Below are positions 7,370 to 13,544 of a DNA stretch of 13,544 bases, in pieces (position 1 is the stretch's first letter; each line of letters opens with the position of its first letter). Under the pieces are notes generated by a model that ran no database searches, was not told the DNA's origin, and worked only from the letters and a program-made list of their open reading frames with translations. The stretch spans positions 1 through 13,544 of the forward strand of contig JABMDH010000076.1 of NCBI GenBank assembly GCA_015904075.1, in the 5' to 3' direction. Source of the stretch: Nitrospira sp. GTDB lineage: Bacteria > Nitrospirota > Nitrospiria > Nitrospirales > Nitrospiraceae. The position numbers and the translations under genes are program-made.

Positions 7370-9280
7370 ATGGGAGATAGTAAAGACCGGTCAAGCCGAC
7401 TCCAGTCCGCCCGAGATACCGTGAAGAAGATCACGCAGCGGTTGTCTGAAGGTAAGTCGGACATGCTACATAAGAACGACGAACACGCCCGCGAGATCGA
7501 CAAGTTGCGCGCTCAAATTGAGTCGCTGGAAGAAGAACTGCGGCGGCTCTATCAGTCCCGTCATCAATTCGACCAAGCCCACAAGCAGAACGAAAAGCTT
7601 GTTACCACGCTGCAGGATGCGAAGGCGCAGATCGAGGCCTTGCGCGCCGAAGTGGACAAGCTGACGGCGCCGCCCTCCACGTACGCGATTTTTTCCGGCA
7701 TGAACGAAGACGGCACCGGCAACGTCTATGTGTCGGGGCGAAAAATGAAAGTCAATGTTCACCCGTCCATCAAGGGTTCGAAATTAAGGAAGGGGCAGGA
7801 AGTCGTTCTGAACGAAGCGCTCAATGTCATCGAGATCAAAGGGTTCGACAGCCAGGGCGAGGTGGTGCGTTTAAAAGACGTGCTCGACGGGGGACGCGCG
7901 CTGGTCACACTCCATTTTGACGAGGAGAAAGTCGCGGATCTGGGCGATCCGTTGCTCGCCGAGCGGCTGAGCGTCGGCGATCATCTGTTGTACGATCCCC
8001 GCTCCGGGTATGTAATCGAGAAGTTACCCAAGTCGGAAGCGGAAGAGCTTGTCCTGGAGGAAGTGCCTGACGTCGATTATGAACATATCGGCGGACTCCA
8101 AAAGGAATTGGAGCATGTGCGCGATGCGGTTGAATTGCCCTTCCTCCATCCACAGATCTTTTCCGAATACAAACTGAGCGCGCCGAAGGGGGTGTTGCTC
8201 TATGGCCCGCCCGGCTGCGGAAAGACGCTCATTGCCAAAGCCGTCGCCAACTCGATTGCGAAAAAGCTGGGCGATCGTGCAGGCAAAGAGATTCGGAGCT
8301 ACTTCGAATACAAACTGAGCGCGCCGAAGGGGGTGTTGCTCTATGGCCCGCCCGGCTGCGGAAAGACGCTCATTGCCAAAGACGTCGCCAACTCGATTGC
8401 GAAAACGCTGGGCGATCGTGCAGGCAAAGAGATTCGGAGCTACTTCCTCCATGTGAAGGGGCCGGAGCTGCTGAATAAGTATGTGGGCGAATCGGAGCGG
8501 CAGGTACGCGAAGTCTTCAAGAAGGCGAAGGAACGTGCGGAAGACGGCCATCCGGTGATCGTCTTTTTCGATGAAATGGATGCGTTGTTTCGAACCAGAG
8601 GCACCGGGATTTCGTCCGATATCGAGTCGACCATCGTGCCGCAGTTTCTCTCGGAAATCGACGGAGTCGAACGTCTGCGTAACGTGATCGTCATCGGGGC
8701 GAGCAACCGGCAGGATCTGATCGATCCCGCCGTGCTTCGTGCCGGTCGGTTGGATGTCAAAGTCAAAGTCGGACGCCCTGATGCCGCCGCCGCACGGGAC
8801 ATTTTCTCCAAGTATGTGTCGATCGATCTTCCCTTTGCCCAGGATGAGTTGGAGCGGCATGGGGGCGACCGGCGGGCGTTCGTGGAGTGGTTGACGTCCC
8901 TGACGGTGGAAACGATGTACGCAGCCAGTGAGGAAAATAAGTTCATCGAAGTCACCTATGCCAACGGCGAAAAGGAAGTGCTGTACTTTAAGGATTTTGC
9001 CAGCGGCGCGCTGATTGAAGGCATCGTCTCGCGCGCGAAAAAGTTTGCGGTCAAGCGGGTGATTTCCGGTGAAGGGACCGGCCTCCGGTCGGAGGATCTG
9101 GTGCGTGCGATCCGTGAGGAGTTCAAAGAGCACGAAGATCTTCCGAATACGACCAATCCGGACGATTGGGCAAAAGTCGCCGGGAAAAAAGGCGAGAAGA
9201 TCATTCATATCCGGACGATCAGCGGCGGGCCGGCCGAATCGCGTCAGATTGAAACGGTTACCACCGGCCACTACCTATAA
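7370..9280 (+). CDS. arc: Proteasome-associated ring ATPase ARC/Mpa, with duplicated Walker A segment
   Basis: This hexameric AAA+ ATPase unfolds tagged proteins and threads them into the 20S proteasome. From ATG 7370 it has 636 residues: an N-terminal coiled coil (about 30-95, KLRAQIESLEEELRRLYQ) that would bind the Pup-like tag, OB-fold interdomain (about 95-235), and an AAA module with Walker A GPPGCGKT, Walker B VIVFFDEMD (D401, E402), GASNRQD and the arginine-rich AGRLDVKVK. The C-terminus ends in GHYL, equivalent to the GQYL tail that docks mycobacterial Mpa on the proteasome. The anomaly is a 47-residue in-frame tandem repeat (E266-F312 and E313-F359), giving Walker A at 279-286 and again at 326-333. 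Removing one copy gives 589 residues, near the family's usual length (about 600). A GTG at 7325 would add 15 residues but lies close to the predicted transcription start, so ATG 7370 is preferred. The stop is nine bases before dop. Confidence 0.95.
   Translation: MGDSKDRSSRLQSARDTVKKITQRLSEGKSDMLHKNDEHAREIDKLRAQIESLEEELRRLYQSRHQFDQAHKQNEKLVTTLQDAKAQIEALRAEVDKLTAPPSTYAIFSGMNEDGTGNVYVSGRKMKVNVHPSIKGSKLRKGQEVVLNEALNVIEIKGFDSQGEVVRLKDVLDGGRALVTLHFDEEKVADLGDPLLAERLSVGDHLLYDPRSGYVIEKLPKSEAEELVLEEVPDVDYEHIGGLQKELEHVRDAVELPFLHPQIFSEYKLSAPKGVLLYGPPGCGKTLIAKAVANSIAKKLGDRAGKEIRSYFEYKLSAPKGVLLYGPPGCGKTLIAKDVANSIAKTLGDRAGKEIRSYFLHVKGPELLNKYVGESERQVREVFKKAKERAEDGHPVIVFFDEMDALFRTRGTGISSDIESTIVPQFLSEIDGVERLRNVIVIGASNRQDLIDPAVLRAGRLDVKVKVGRPDAAAARDIFSKYVSIDLPFAQDELERHGGDRRAFVEWLTSLTVETMYAASEENKFIEVTYANGEKEVLYFKDFASGALIEGIVSRAKKFAVKRVISGEGTGLRSEDLVRAIREEFKEHEDLPNTTNPDDWAKVAGKKGEKIIHIRTISGGPAESRQIETVTTGHYL
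8165..8446 (+). repeat. 141-bp in-frame tandem duplication inside arc
   Basis: Copy 1 spans 8165-8305 and copy 2 spans 8306-8446. They differ at only two bases: C at 8241 against A at 8382 (Ala to Asp) and A at 8265 against C at 8406 (Lys to Thr). Both changes alter the protein. Copy 1 keeps the family-typical AKAVANSIAKKL, so copy 2 is the more diverged. The near identity points to a very recent event or an assembly artefact. Confidence 0.95.
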
Positions 9281-9289
9281 CCATCGCTT

Positions 9290-10789
9290 ATGTCCGAACA
9301 CACACCGACGAATCGCTCGCGAGTGCTTGGTACGGAAACCGAGTTCGGCATTGCGGCAAAGGACAACTCGTCCGCCGATCCGGTGACCGGTTCGATCGCC
9401 GTGATCGGGCACTACACGGGACTGCCTGCGCCGGGTGCGATCTGGGATTACGAGCACGAAAACCCGCTGTTAGATGCCCGTGGGTTCGAAATCGACGGTG
9501 AGCGCGAACGTCCCAATCCCGATTACAATCGGCAGCTCAACAAGGTGTTGGCGAACGGCGGACGCCTCTATGTCGACGGGGCCCATCCTGAATACTCCAC
9601 TCCGGAATGTTCGACTCCGCGGGAAGTGGTGGCCTTTGAGCGGGCCGGGGAGCGGATTCTCGCGCAGAGTCTCCGTGAAATGACCAGAGTCCGGGGTAGC
9701 GAACAATATGTACTCTACAAGAACAATTCCGACGGCAAGGGCAACAGTTACGGCTATCATGAAAACTATTTAGTGTCGCGCGCCGTGCCGTTCAACACCA
9801 TTGCCCGCGTGTTGATCCCCTTCCTGGTCACCAGGCCGATTTTCGCCGGGGCCGGCAAGGTCGGAGCGGAAAATCAGACCACTCCGGCAGAGTATCAGAT
9901 ATCTCAGCGCGCCGATTTTTTTGAATGCCTGCTCGATCTCAATACGATGGTCAAGCGGCCGATCATCAATACGCGCGATGAGCCGCATGCCGAGCATGCG
10001 AAGTTTCGGCGTCTCCATGTCATTGTGGGCGATGCCAATATGGCGGAGGTCTCCACCTATCTGAAGGTGGGCACTTTAGATATTGTGTTGGAACTGCTTG
10101 AGGCGGGAGCCACGTTGCCTTCGGTAGAGCTGGATGAACCGGTTCGCGTGTTCAAACAAGTGTCCCGTGATCTGGATATGAAGGACACGCTCAAGCTGGT
10201 AGGTGGACGTCCGACAACGGCGGTGGCCGTTCAGCGCGCTTATCTCAATGCGGCCGTGAGCTTCTATGCGACGAACGGTCTCGATCCCTCGACTCAGGAT
10301 CTTCTGCACCGTTGGGAGACCGTGCTCGACACGCTCGATCGTGATCCGCGTCTGCTGGTGAATCAGTTGGATTGGGTGGCCAAGCGCCACATGATTGAGT
10401 CCTATATGGACCGCAAGGGCTGCGGGTGGGACGATCCCCGTATCAAGCTGATGGACCTGCAATACCATGATGTCCGCCCTGAGCGAGGGTTGTTCTACAC
10501 GCTGGAGCGTGGCGGGCATATCGAGCGGATCGTCGAGGAGGCGGATATTCAACGCGCAGAGTATACTCCGCCCCCCGGCACCAGAGCCTATTTCCGCGGC
10601 CGCTGCGCGAGCAAGTTTGCCAAGGCGCTCTATGGGGTGAGCTGGACGTCAGTGCTGTTCGACGTCGGCAATGCCACGATCAAGAAAGTGCCGTTGATGG
10701 ATCCCCATCGCGGGACGCAGGCGTTGACCGGCGGATTGCTCGATACAGTGGATACGGTCGATGCGTTGATTGAGAAACTGAAAGCTTGA
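9290..10789 (+). CDS. dop: Deamidase/depupylase Dop
   Basis: Dop is related to glutamine synthetase and PafA; it deamidates the C-terminal Gln of Pup (where present) and removes the modifier from conjugates, using a bound ATP. Of 499 residues, the first shows VLGTETEFG (catalytic/metal Glu16), then the Dop loop region with WDYEHENPLLDARGF (about 52-66), which PafA lacks, and GGRLYVDGAHPEYSTPEC with D96 matching the essential Asp of the family. Further shared blocks are LYKNNSDGKGNSYGYHENYL, IINTRDEPHAEHAKFRRLHV, VGDANMAEVSTYLKVG, LDWVAKRHMI, DLQYHDV and YFRGRCASKFAKAL. It follows arc by nine bases and precedes prcB by 21. The ATG has no obvious Shine-Dalgarno, so translation is probably coupled to arc. 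Confidence 0.95.
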   Translation: MSEHTPTNRSRVLGTETEFGIAAKDNSSADPVTGSIAVIGHYTGLPAPGAIWDYEHENPLLDARGFEIDGERERPNPDYNRQLNKVLANGGRLYVDGAHPEYSTPECSTPREVVAFERAGERILAQSLREMTRVRGSEQYVLYKNNSDGKGNSYGYHENYLVSRAVPFNTIARVLIPFLVTRPIFAGAGKVGAENQTTPAEYQISQRADFFECLLDLNTMVKRPIINTRDEPHAEHAKFRRLHVIVGDANMAEVSTYLKVGTLDIVLELLEAGATLPSVELDEPVRVFKQVSRDLDMKDTLKLVGGRPTTAVAVQRAYLNAAVSFYATNGLDPSTQDLLHRWETVLDTLDRDPRLLVNQLDWVAKRHMIESYMDRKGCGWDDPRIKLMDLQYHDVRPERGLFYTLERGGHIERIVEEADIQRAEYTPPPGTRAYFRGRCASKFAKALYGVSWTSVLFDVGNATIKKVPLMDPHRGTQALTGGLLDTVDTVDALIEKLKA

Positions 10790-10810
10790 TATGCCAATTG
10801 GTAATTTTCT

Positions 10811-11641
10811 ATGAAGTTGCCCTATTTGCCGAATCACGACGAATCCAGTTTTTTTGATTTCGTCTCGAAGCATCATCCGGGGCTGACGCCCGGCGGTCAC
10901 GGCGCGGTGCCTGCTGATCGGTGGGCACAGTCGGACCCGGCCCGATCGGGTGGGCCGATGGCGGTACCCCATGCGACGACCGTCTTGGCGATTAAGTATC
11001 AACAGGGAGTGGTGATTGCCGGCGATCGTCGGGCGACGGAGGGATTTCAGATCGCCGATCGCCGCATTGAAAAGGTATTTAAGATCGATGAGTTCTCCGC
11101 CATGGCGATTGCCGGTGCTGCCGGTCCCTGCATTGAGATGGCCAGGCTGTTCCAAACCGAGCTGGAGCATTACGAAAAATTAGAAGGGATGCAGCTGTCC
11201 TGCGAGGGGAAAGCGAATAAGCTCGGTCAGATGGTCAAAGCCAATCTCCCGATGGTGTTTCATGGGTTGGTCGTGATGCCGTTGTACGTGGGCTATGACC
11301 TCAAGCGCGCCGAAGGGCGCATCTTTAAGTACGATCTGGCCGGCGGGCGCTATGAGGAGTCGGATTATCACGCTATCGGATCGGGCGGCAAAGACGCGCG
11401 CAACACCATGCGTGAGTATTTCCAGAAAAACCTGTCGGAACCTGACGCACTCAAACTGGCGCTGACTGCGCTGTACAATGCCGCAGACGATGATGTGGGC
11501 ACCGGAGGGCCGGATCTCGTGCGAGGGATCTATCCGACGGCCAAGTTCGTCACCGCGCAGGGCATCGCCGATGTGGCTGAGGACCAGATCCGTTCCGTCT
11601 ACGACGGCATGATTGCCGTACGACGATCGAGGGAGACGTAA
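10811..11641 (+). CDS. prcB: Proteasome beta subunit PrcB (20S catalytic subunit, precursor)
   Basis: PrcB forms the two inner heptameric rings of the 20S proteasome and cleaves unfolded proteins inside the chamber. The 276-residue precursor has a propeptide of about 55 residues (SSFFDFVSKHHPGLTPG resembles the mycobacterial SSFTDFLRRQAPELLPA), removed before Thr56 in PHA-TTVLAIKY. Relative to that Thr, Asp17 (D72 in AGDRRAT) and Lys33 (K88 in IEKVFKID) are in place. ELEHYEKLEGM, YDLAGGRYEE, DYHAIGSGGKDARN and YNAADDDVGTGGPDLVRGIYPTA follow the family. The propeptide match supports the ATG at 10811; an internal Met at residue 50 is not needed. The 21 bases before it lack the Pup-type gene that mycobacteria have at this place, and no strong Shine-Dalgarno is visible. 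Confidence 0.96.
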   Translation: MKLPYLPNHDESSFFDFVSKHHPGLTPGGHGAVPADRWAQSDPARSGGPMAVPHATTVLAIKYQQGVVIAGDRRATEGFQIADRRIEKVFKIDEFSAMAIAGAAGPCIEMARLFQTELEHYEKLEGMQLSCEGKANKLGQMVKANLPMVFHGLVVMPLYVGYDLKRAEGRIFKYDLAGGRYEESDYHAIGSGGKDARNTMREYFQKNLSEPDALKLALTALYNAADDDVGTGGPDLVRGIYPTAKFVTAQGIADVAEDQIRSVYDGMIAVRRSRET

Positions 11642-11643
11642 CC

Positions 11644-12330
11644 ATGCCCATGCCGTATTACGTGTCTCCCGAACAGGTGATGCAGGACAAGGCGGAGTAT
11701 GCCAAAAAGGGCATCGCCAAGGGCCGGTCCATCATCGCCATGGAGTATGCCGACGGCATTTTGTTGACGGCCGATAACCCCAGCGCGTCGCTGCACAAGG
11801 TCTCTGAGATCTATGACTGCATCGCGTTTGCCGGAGCCGGCAAGTACAGCGAGTTTGAGAATCTGCGCAAGGCCGGCATCCGGCACGCTGATCTCAAAGG
11901 CTTCATGTATAGCCGTGAAGACGTGACGGGTCGTTCTCTGGCCAACGGGTATTCTCAGAGCCTCGGCACAATTTTCAGCCAGGAGCTGAAACCGCTCGAA
12001 GTGGAAATTCTGGTGGTGCAGGTCGGCGTCAACGGCCATCCGAACGAAATGTATCGGATTTCATTCGATGGGAGCATCATCGATGAAAAGAATTTTGCGG
12101 TTATCGGCGGGAAATCGGATGCCGTGCAGGCTGTGTTGAAAGAGAAAAGCTCCGGCCAGGCCCCGGCGCTGGAGACGGCGTTGGCCCGTTGCCTTTCGGC
12201 GCTCGAACAGACTGCGAATCTCAAGCTGCCCCCCGAAGGACTGGAAGTGGCGGTCTTGGAGCGCCACCGCGTCGGCCGGAAATTTCGTCGCTTGCCGGTG
12301 GCCGATATTCGCCGGCTCCTCTCCAACTAA
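11644..12330 (+). CDS. prcA: Proteasome alpha subunit PrcA
   Basis: PrcA forms the outer heptameric rings of the 20S proteasome, which gate entry and receive the C-terminal tails of the ARC ATPase. The 228-residue protein starts MPMPYYVSPEQVMQDKAEYA, the alpha-subunit signature (compare SFPYFISPEQAMRERSELA in mycobacteria), then KKGIAKGRSIIA, PSASLHKVSEIYD, AGAGKYSEFENLRKAGI, DVTGRSLANGYSQSLGTIF and FDGSIIDEKNFAVIGG. It has no propeptide or catalytic N-terminal Thr, as expected. GGGAG about nine bases upstream is a good Shine-Dalgarno. It starts two bases after the prcB stop, so the stoichiometric partners are made together. The C-terminus (RRLLSN) is shorter than the mycobacterial tail. Confidence 0.96.
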   Translation: MPMPYYVSPEQVMQDKAEYAKKGIAKGRSIIAMEYADGILLTADNPSASLHKVSEIYDCIAFAGAGKYSEFENLRKAGIRHADLKGFMYSREDVTGRSLANGYSQSLGTIFSQELKPLEVEILVVQVGVNGHPNEMYRISFDGSIIDEKNFAVIGGKSDAVQAVLKEKSSGQAPALETALARCLSALEQTANLKLPPEGLEVAVLERHRVGRKFRRLPVADIRRLLSN

Positions 12331-12400: not shown

Positions 12401-13544
12401 ATGGTATCTCCAGGCCCCATCAAACCGCGGATCTTCGGTCTTGAAAATGAGTACGGCCTGATATTCTCGCCGAACGGCCGGATCTATCTGCCGATGGAAA
12501 AGGTTCTGGGGTATATCTTTGAGGGCCTCATTCCCAACAGCTGGCCGTCCAATGCGTTCCTGGTCAACGGCGCGCGGTTCTATCAGGACACCGGATGCCA
12601 TCCGGAATACTCCACGCCGGAATGCGACAACATTCTCGATCTTGTGATCCATGACAAGGCCGGTGAGCGGCTGTTGGAGGCCTGTTTGCCGGCGGCTGAA
12701 GAGCGTCTTCGCGAGGAGGGGCTCTCCGGCGAGATTTATATTTTCAAGAACAATACCGATTCACTGGGCAATACCTACGGCTGCCACGAAAACTTTTCGA
12801 TGCGGCGCGACGTCGATTTCTGGAAAGTGACGGAGCAGCTGATTCCGTTCTTCGTCACGCGGCAGGTGTTCAGCGGGGCGGGAAAAGTGCTCAAGGTATC
12901 CGGTAAGCCGCAGTATTTCATTTCCCAGCGGGCGCAGCATATTCACGAAAAGACGTCGTCGTCGACCACATCCTCGCGCAGCATCATCAACACCCGCGAT
13001 GAGCCGCATGCCGATGCGGAGCGGTATCGCCGTCTTCATATCATCGTGGGCGATTCCAACATGTCGGAGTTTGCCACGTATCTCAAGGTCGGCACGGCGG
13101 CGCTGGTCCTGTCGATGATCGAAGAGGGCTATGCGGTCCATGGGATGGAGCTGGAAGATCCCGTCAAAGCGATCCGCGAGATTGCACGCGATTATACCCT
13201 CAAGAAAAAAGTGCGGCTCGATGACGGCCGGCAGTTGACCGCGGTAGAAATTCAGCGGATCTATTTGGAACGTGCCAGGGAGTATCTGGACCGGCACGCG
13301 CATGACCCGACTCTCGATGACGTCTATGTCAAATGGCAGCAGGTGCTCGATCAGCTGGAAGACGATCCCATGCAGTTGGTCCATCAGGTTGATTGGGTGA
13401 CCAAGAAACATCTGATTCAATCGTATGTGGATAAAAAGTCATGCGGTTGGGACGATCCGCGGGTGCTGTTGCTGGACTTGCAGTACCATGACGTGAAACG
13501 GACGCGGGGACTGTACTACCTCATGGAATCCCGCGGGCTCATTG
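12401..13544 (+). CDS. pafA: Pup--protein ligase PafA (3' end outside window)
   Basis: PafA uses ATP to phosphorylate the C-terminal Glu of the Pup-like modifier and joins it to lysines of target proteins, marking them for the proteasome. 381 codons are visible; the family has about 450-480, so only the C-terminal part is cut off. The start is RIFGLENEYG (E15), followed directly by FLVNGARFYQDTGCHPEYSTPEC (D63 is the catalytic Asp position), with no Dop loop. Other marks: IYIFKNNTDSLGNTYGCHENF, FFVTRQVFSGAGKV, SSSTTSSRSIINTRDEPHAD, YRRLHIIVGDSNMSEFATYLKVG, VKAIREIARDYT and LDLQYHDVKRTRGLYYLM. The ATG at 12401 has no Shine-Dalgarno. It is paralogous to dop (shared IINTRDEPHA and SxECx blocks). 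Prefers modifiers ending in Glu, or Gln after Dop acts; the modifier gene is not in the window. Confidence 0.95.
   Translation, partial: MVSPGPIKPRIFGLENEYGLIFSPNGRIYLPMEKVLGYIFEGLIPNSWPSNAFLVNGARFYQDTGCHPEYSTPECDNILDLVIHDKAGERLLEACLPAAEERLREEGLSGEIYIFKNNTDSLGNTYGCHENFSMRRDVDFWKVTEQLIPFFVTRQVFSGAGKVLKVSGKPQYFISQRAQHIHEKTSSSTTSSRSIINTRDEPHADAERYRRLHIIVGDSNMSEFATYLKVGTAALVLSMIEEGYAVHGMELEDPVKAIREIARDYTLKKKVRLDDGRQLTAVEIQRIYLERAREYLDRHAHDPTLDDVYVKWQQVLDQLEDDPMQLVHQVDWVTKKHLIQSYVDKKSCGWDDPRVLLLDLQYHDVKRTRGLYYLMESRGLI

Follow-up and report, generated by a model that had tools for sequence, protein, structure and literature searches.

The arc/mpa gene, encoding the proteasomal AAA ATPase, of a Nitrospira contig holds an in-frame tandem repeat with a unit of 141 bp, i.e. 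47 codons: each unit encodes strand β1, the Walker A motif (GPPGCGKT), helix α1 and the loop that follows, and everything from the Walker B motif onward is single. The explanation that we favour, with somewhat less than even confidence, is a recent, private in-frame duplication in one Nitrospira lineage, in which the functional P-loop is that of copy 1. The features of the gene, in the coordinates of the analysed stretch of 13,544 nucleotides (hereafter, the window), are the following:

7370..9280, + strand: arc/mpa, proteasomal AAA ATPase (TIGR03689; PF17758, PF16450, PF00004), 636 codons plus stop
8165..8305, + strand: copy 1 of the 141-bp unit, residues 266-312, whose sequence is the ancestral one
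8306..8446, + strand: copy 2 of the 141-bp unit, residues 313-359, with Asp 338 (base 8382) and Thr 346 (base 8406)
8294..8314, + strand: duplication junction, encoding RSYF/EYK (the slash marks the border of the copies), with one base of junctional identity
8561..8581, + strand: Walker B stretch VFFDEMD, single, residues 398-404

The extent of the repeat has been obtained by two programs: the repeat search of the window lists it as family D4 (141 nt, spacing 141), and Tandem Repeats Finder reports positions 8164-8446, with a period of 141, 98% matches, 0% indels and a score of 552; owing to one shared base, 8164-8304 and 8305-8445 are an equivalent register of the same units. The agreement of the two programs bears out an earlier reading of the same DNA from its sequence only (the sequence-only reading), which had described a near-perfect in-frame tandem duplication at 8165-8446, coordinates that correspond exactly to two codon-aligned units. 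The copies mismatch at two bases, C to A (8241 versus 8382) and A to C (8265 versus 8406), which leave identical runs of 77, 23 and 40 nt; both mismatches change the amino acid (A291 versus D338 and K299 versus T346), and the comparison of the copies thus returns the two differences, Ala to Asp and Lys to Thr in copy 2, that had been noticed before. A chance repeat is ruled out, as 139 random matches in 141 positions have a probability of about 10^-80. No 78-mer is found twice in the window, so that reads of 150 nt could resolve the 141-bp array.

The product of the gene matches TIGR03689 (pup_AAA) in two stretches with 794.6 bits, above the cutoff of 504.75, in agreement with its earlier naming as an ARC/Mpa ATPase. 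The open reading frame stays open through the repeat to position 9280; the frame that was called mechanically begins upstream, at GTG 7325, and the count of 636 codons is taken from ATG 7370. With this start, the protein minus one copy has 589 residues, which is the commonest length among the relatives (82/120), and the rest of its layout is normal, as the sequence-only reading had it: the N-terminal coiled coil and the two OB domains are present (PF17758, PF16450; a long helix at residues 36-99 in the structure model), and the Walker B and sensor stretches are single and follow the family consensus, the IVFFDEMD and IGASNR columns being invariant in an alignment of 26 sequences, which also upholds the claim of a single Walker B. 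The departure from the relatives, and from the known ARC/Mpa proteins (TIGR03689; PDB IDs 5kwa, 5kzf and 7px9-7pxd), is limited to 47 extra residues, through which the β1-Walker A-α1 unit occurs twice; the extra beta-alpha unit that had been proposed for the AAA core is indeed encoded, at residues 313-359. This protein does not represent a new ATPase class.

The gene lies in a proteasome locus of the Nitrospira type, in the order thiS, thiG, thiE, arc, dop, prcB, prcA, pafA; a thiS, a thiG and a thiE-type gene (Pfam ThiS, ThiG and TMP-TENI) are located upstream of arc, and the genes for Dop, PafA and the 20S subunits accompany it, as is characteristic of an ARC/Mpa locus. The downstream genes are:

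9290..10789, + strand: dop (depupylase/deamidase), TIGR03688, 546.6 bits versus a cutoff of 492.3
10811..11641, + strand: prcB, proteasome beta subunit, TIGR03690, 298.8 bits versus 191.9
11644..12330, + strand: prcA, proteasome alpha subunit, TIGR03691, 297.4 bits versus 139.05
12401..13544, + strand: pafA-like ligase, running off the window, PF03136; TIGR03686, 467.9 bits for the truncated sequence, short of the whole-protein cutoff of 551.3

The order from thiG to pafA (thiG, thiE, arc, dop, prcB, prcA, pafA) is also found in locus L002 (N. moscoviensis) and in locus L003. The gap between dop and prcB (10789-10811) is only about 20 bp long and so leaves no room for a gene for a tag of the Pup/UBact type; reading the open reading frame lists by eye did not show one either.

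The copy number among the relatives has been examined with three protein searches, from each of which the best 120 matches were considered (of 7998, 4208 and 6901 proteins, respectively; 160 distinct proteins fetched), and with a comparison of genome loci (80 fetched of at least 592). The Walker A motif is single in 160/160 fetched homologues, and GPPGCGKT is single in the ARC frame of 80/80 fetched loci; a conserved feature of the clade is therefore an unsupported explanation of the repeat. Close relatives have one copy as well: proteins P0006 and P0007 have one copy at 96.6-98.2% protein identity in the flanks (96.6-98.6% in the flanking parts compared when the partial, likewise single-copy P0003 is included, i.e. 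about 97-98%), and the nearest fetched locus, L001, from a Nitrospira metagenome bin, is single-copy too, its arc flanks being about 88% identical at the DNA level. The two top-scoring proteins of the first search, whose scores suggested further duplications, have been rejected: P0001 is single-copy, its FFEYK merely resembling the junction, and the array of P0002 is unrelated, as described below. The protein collection consists of representatives of 90% clusters, and a duplicated member could hence hide behind a single-copy representative.

At the two differing sites, the relatives side with copy 1: Ala at the site of A291 (AKAVA) is kept in 160/160 fetched proteins and 80/80 loci, the site of K299 is Lys in 119 and Arg in one of the best 120 of 7998 proteins (Ala at the A291 site in 120/120), and L001 has the codons GCC and AAA. 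Copy 2 is the derived copy; since the fetched, single-copy relatives match copy 1 at the changed sites, copy 1 is the ancestral one, and both changes arose in copy 2. Sequences that carry the derived state or the junction were sought in the same material: the copy-2 words KDVAN and AKTLG and the junction word YFEYK occur in 0/160 fetched proteins, the matches listed for the junction query (best 120 of 4208) span just 55-57% of the query, the top matches of the copy-2 region (residues 328-367; best 120 of 6901) are 95% identical and lack the copy-2 words, the exact junction gave 0 matches in viral contigs, and the protein of the window itself is not among the matches listed.

The comparison with L001 also bears on the age of the repeat. 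Copy 1 differs from L001 by 21 synonymous and 0 non-synonymous changes, and copy 2 by 21 and 2; as the copies show no synonymous difference between them, the duplication is much more recent than the divergence from L001. Purifying selection on the flanking codons is strong (dN/dS about 0.05): against L001, dS is 0.58, dN 0.028 and dN/dS 0.049, and against L002, L003 and L009, dN/dS is 0.045-0.050. Under the constraint of the flanks, both of two changes would be non-synonymous with a probability of about 0.02-0.03, and without constraint with one of 0.59; together with the location of one of them at an invariant Ala, this hints at a weaker constraint on copy 2. With two differences it is a hint and not a proof, as a strong test of constraint would need more of them, and sequencing error would give the same picture.

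A serious alternative, nearly as likely as the duplication that we favour, is that a chimeric read or amplification product, or the local misassembly of a poorly covered contig, made the repeat, the two differences being consensus errors or bases of a minor strain. The duplication is seen in one contig, the junction is absent from the fetched relatives, both differences fall at positions where the relatives do not vary in this manner, and the change from Ala to Asp at an invariant site could equally be a consensus error; in addition, a frameshift is probable near position 690 of this contig, so its base accuracy may be imperfect, and an unrelated exact tandem array is present in P0002, one of the 160 ARC proteins fetched, which shows that such arrays appear occasionally in public assemblies. 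On the other hand, at least one read must presumably contain the junction, the repeat leaves the frame intact, for which a random artefact has a one-in-three chance, and the frames from thiG to prcA, along with the part of pafA, are uninterrupted, with family matches that extend across almost the full model or the portion present. Moreover, the residues of copy 2 occur in none of the 160 fetched homologues, so that a stitching of strains would have no visible donor. The argument of the sequence-only reading, that the two non-synonymous differences speak against an artefact, holds in part: they do counter a simple stitching of reads, but consensus errors at invariant positions would look the same.

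If the duplication is present in the organism, as we favour, the protein would have gained a second β1-P-loop-α1 unit, with the Walker B motif and the set of sensor residues staying single; with one Walker B and one sensor set, only one of the units could complete a nucleotide site. Copy 1 most likely keeps its place in the core, because it is joined to the pre-core helix and its sequence is unchanged, and the extra 47 residues, with the P-loop of copy 2, would protrude as a loop that connects helix α1 to strand β2, where the drift of copy 2 may have begun with the change from Ala to Asp at the invariant position and with the change from Lys to Thr. The ATPase activity would then be reduced rather than normal. 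Two comparisons side with copy 1: MAFFT puts the full-length homologues on its P-loop, and the phmmer match to Mpa covers residues 55-306, including the P-loop of copy 1, and then resumes at residue 345, although both preferences may reflect the two mismatches. The structure model of the two-copy protein (mean pLDDT and pTM of 69.7 and 0.52, compared to 71.2 and 0.51 for the single-copy control) has the canonical order of AAA elements with the P-loop of copy 1 in the core and residues 304-355 at a pLDDT under 50; the register of the model was dictated by the alignment, in which all 25 homologues have a gap at residues 300-346, and for this reason the model cannot tell the copies apart.

A real duplication with the opposite arrangement, copy 2 supplying the nucleotide site and copy 1 forming a loop ahead of it, is very improbable: the native connection to strand β2 belongs to copy 2, and the best-scoring Pfam AAA stretch (residues 322-468) starts in copy 2 and includes its P-loop, but copy 2 bears the change from Ala to Asp, copy 1 would part the pre-core helix from strand β1, and the MAFFT and phmmer choices described above, with the same reservation about the mismatches, point to copy 1. 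There is also a slight chance that the two near-identical units compete for one core, either as alternative registers or as a reversible switch of proteasomal degradation, through the gain and loss of a copy, in a Nitrospira population.

It is unlikely, though less so than the previous two arrangements, that a real duplication has inactivated the ATPase, because neither unit packs or because the ring cannot assemble; arc would then be a nascent pseudogene or in an off-state, revertible to the single copy by recombination between the copies. The insertion sits in the catalytic core, an invariant Ala is changed, and an exact internal repeat of at least 14 residues occurs in only one of the 160 fetched homologues, the unrelated P0002. 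Against a loss of function, the rest of the gene is free of stops and frameshifts, its flanks look strongly constrained, though the event may be too young for decay to be visible, and the predicted structure retains the AAA core with a mean confidence similar to that of the control.

With respect to its origin, the duplication that we favour was probably produced by replication slippage. A direct repeat of 10 nt is located around the breakpoints:

8140..8149, + strand: direct repeat CTTCCTCCAT, left member, 15 bases outside the left breakpoint
8443..8452, + strand: direct repeat CTTCCTCCAT, right member, overlapping the right breakpoint

In the relatives, the sequence shared at these positions is only 4 to 9 nt long (13/13 checked). 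The 10-nt repeat could have promoted slippage; exact slippage on it has been rejected as the source, since it predicts a unit of 162 bp instead of the observed 141, and the repeat would thus be at most a helper. The analysis gave no sign that the duplication has spread or has been selected.

Among known proteins, a comparable case is P0002, an ARC-type protein of 735 aa from a public ENA contig, which also has an internal in-frame tandem array in its AAA region (offset of 146 aa, run of 148); it differs from the protein of the window in that its unit of 146 aa covers the Walker B motif and the residues downstream, its Walker A is single and its copies are identical, and its array, whether real or an artefact, is independent of the duplication described here. 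In engineered helix duplications of T4 lysozyme, two identical neighbouring segments reportedly compete for one place and one of them is extruded; those duplications were designed rather than natural, and T4 lysozyme is not an ATPase. In the literature searched, as judged by titles and the beginnings of abstracts, we have found no duplicated Walker A in an AAA ATPase. If real, the duplication offers a natural experiment on two questions, whether a second nucleotide-binding unit can be accommodated by an AAA core, and which one of two almost identical segments is taken up into a fold; if it is an artefact, it is a reminder that a short in-frame tandem array seen in one contig has to be backed by reads. 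The knowledge of bacterial proteasomes is unchanged by it.

Elsewhere in the window, a gene with calcium-binding repeats of the RTX type is apparently split, within positions 600-800, by a frameshift near 690: the left frame stops at 752, another frame runs on from 698, and both match PF00353; the split may be genuine or may stem from an error in the sequence. The region of the calcium-binding gene (positions 1-2229) also contains diverged direct repeats of about 165 bp (families D1-D3).
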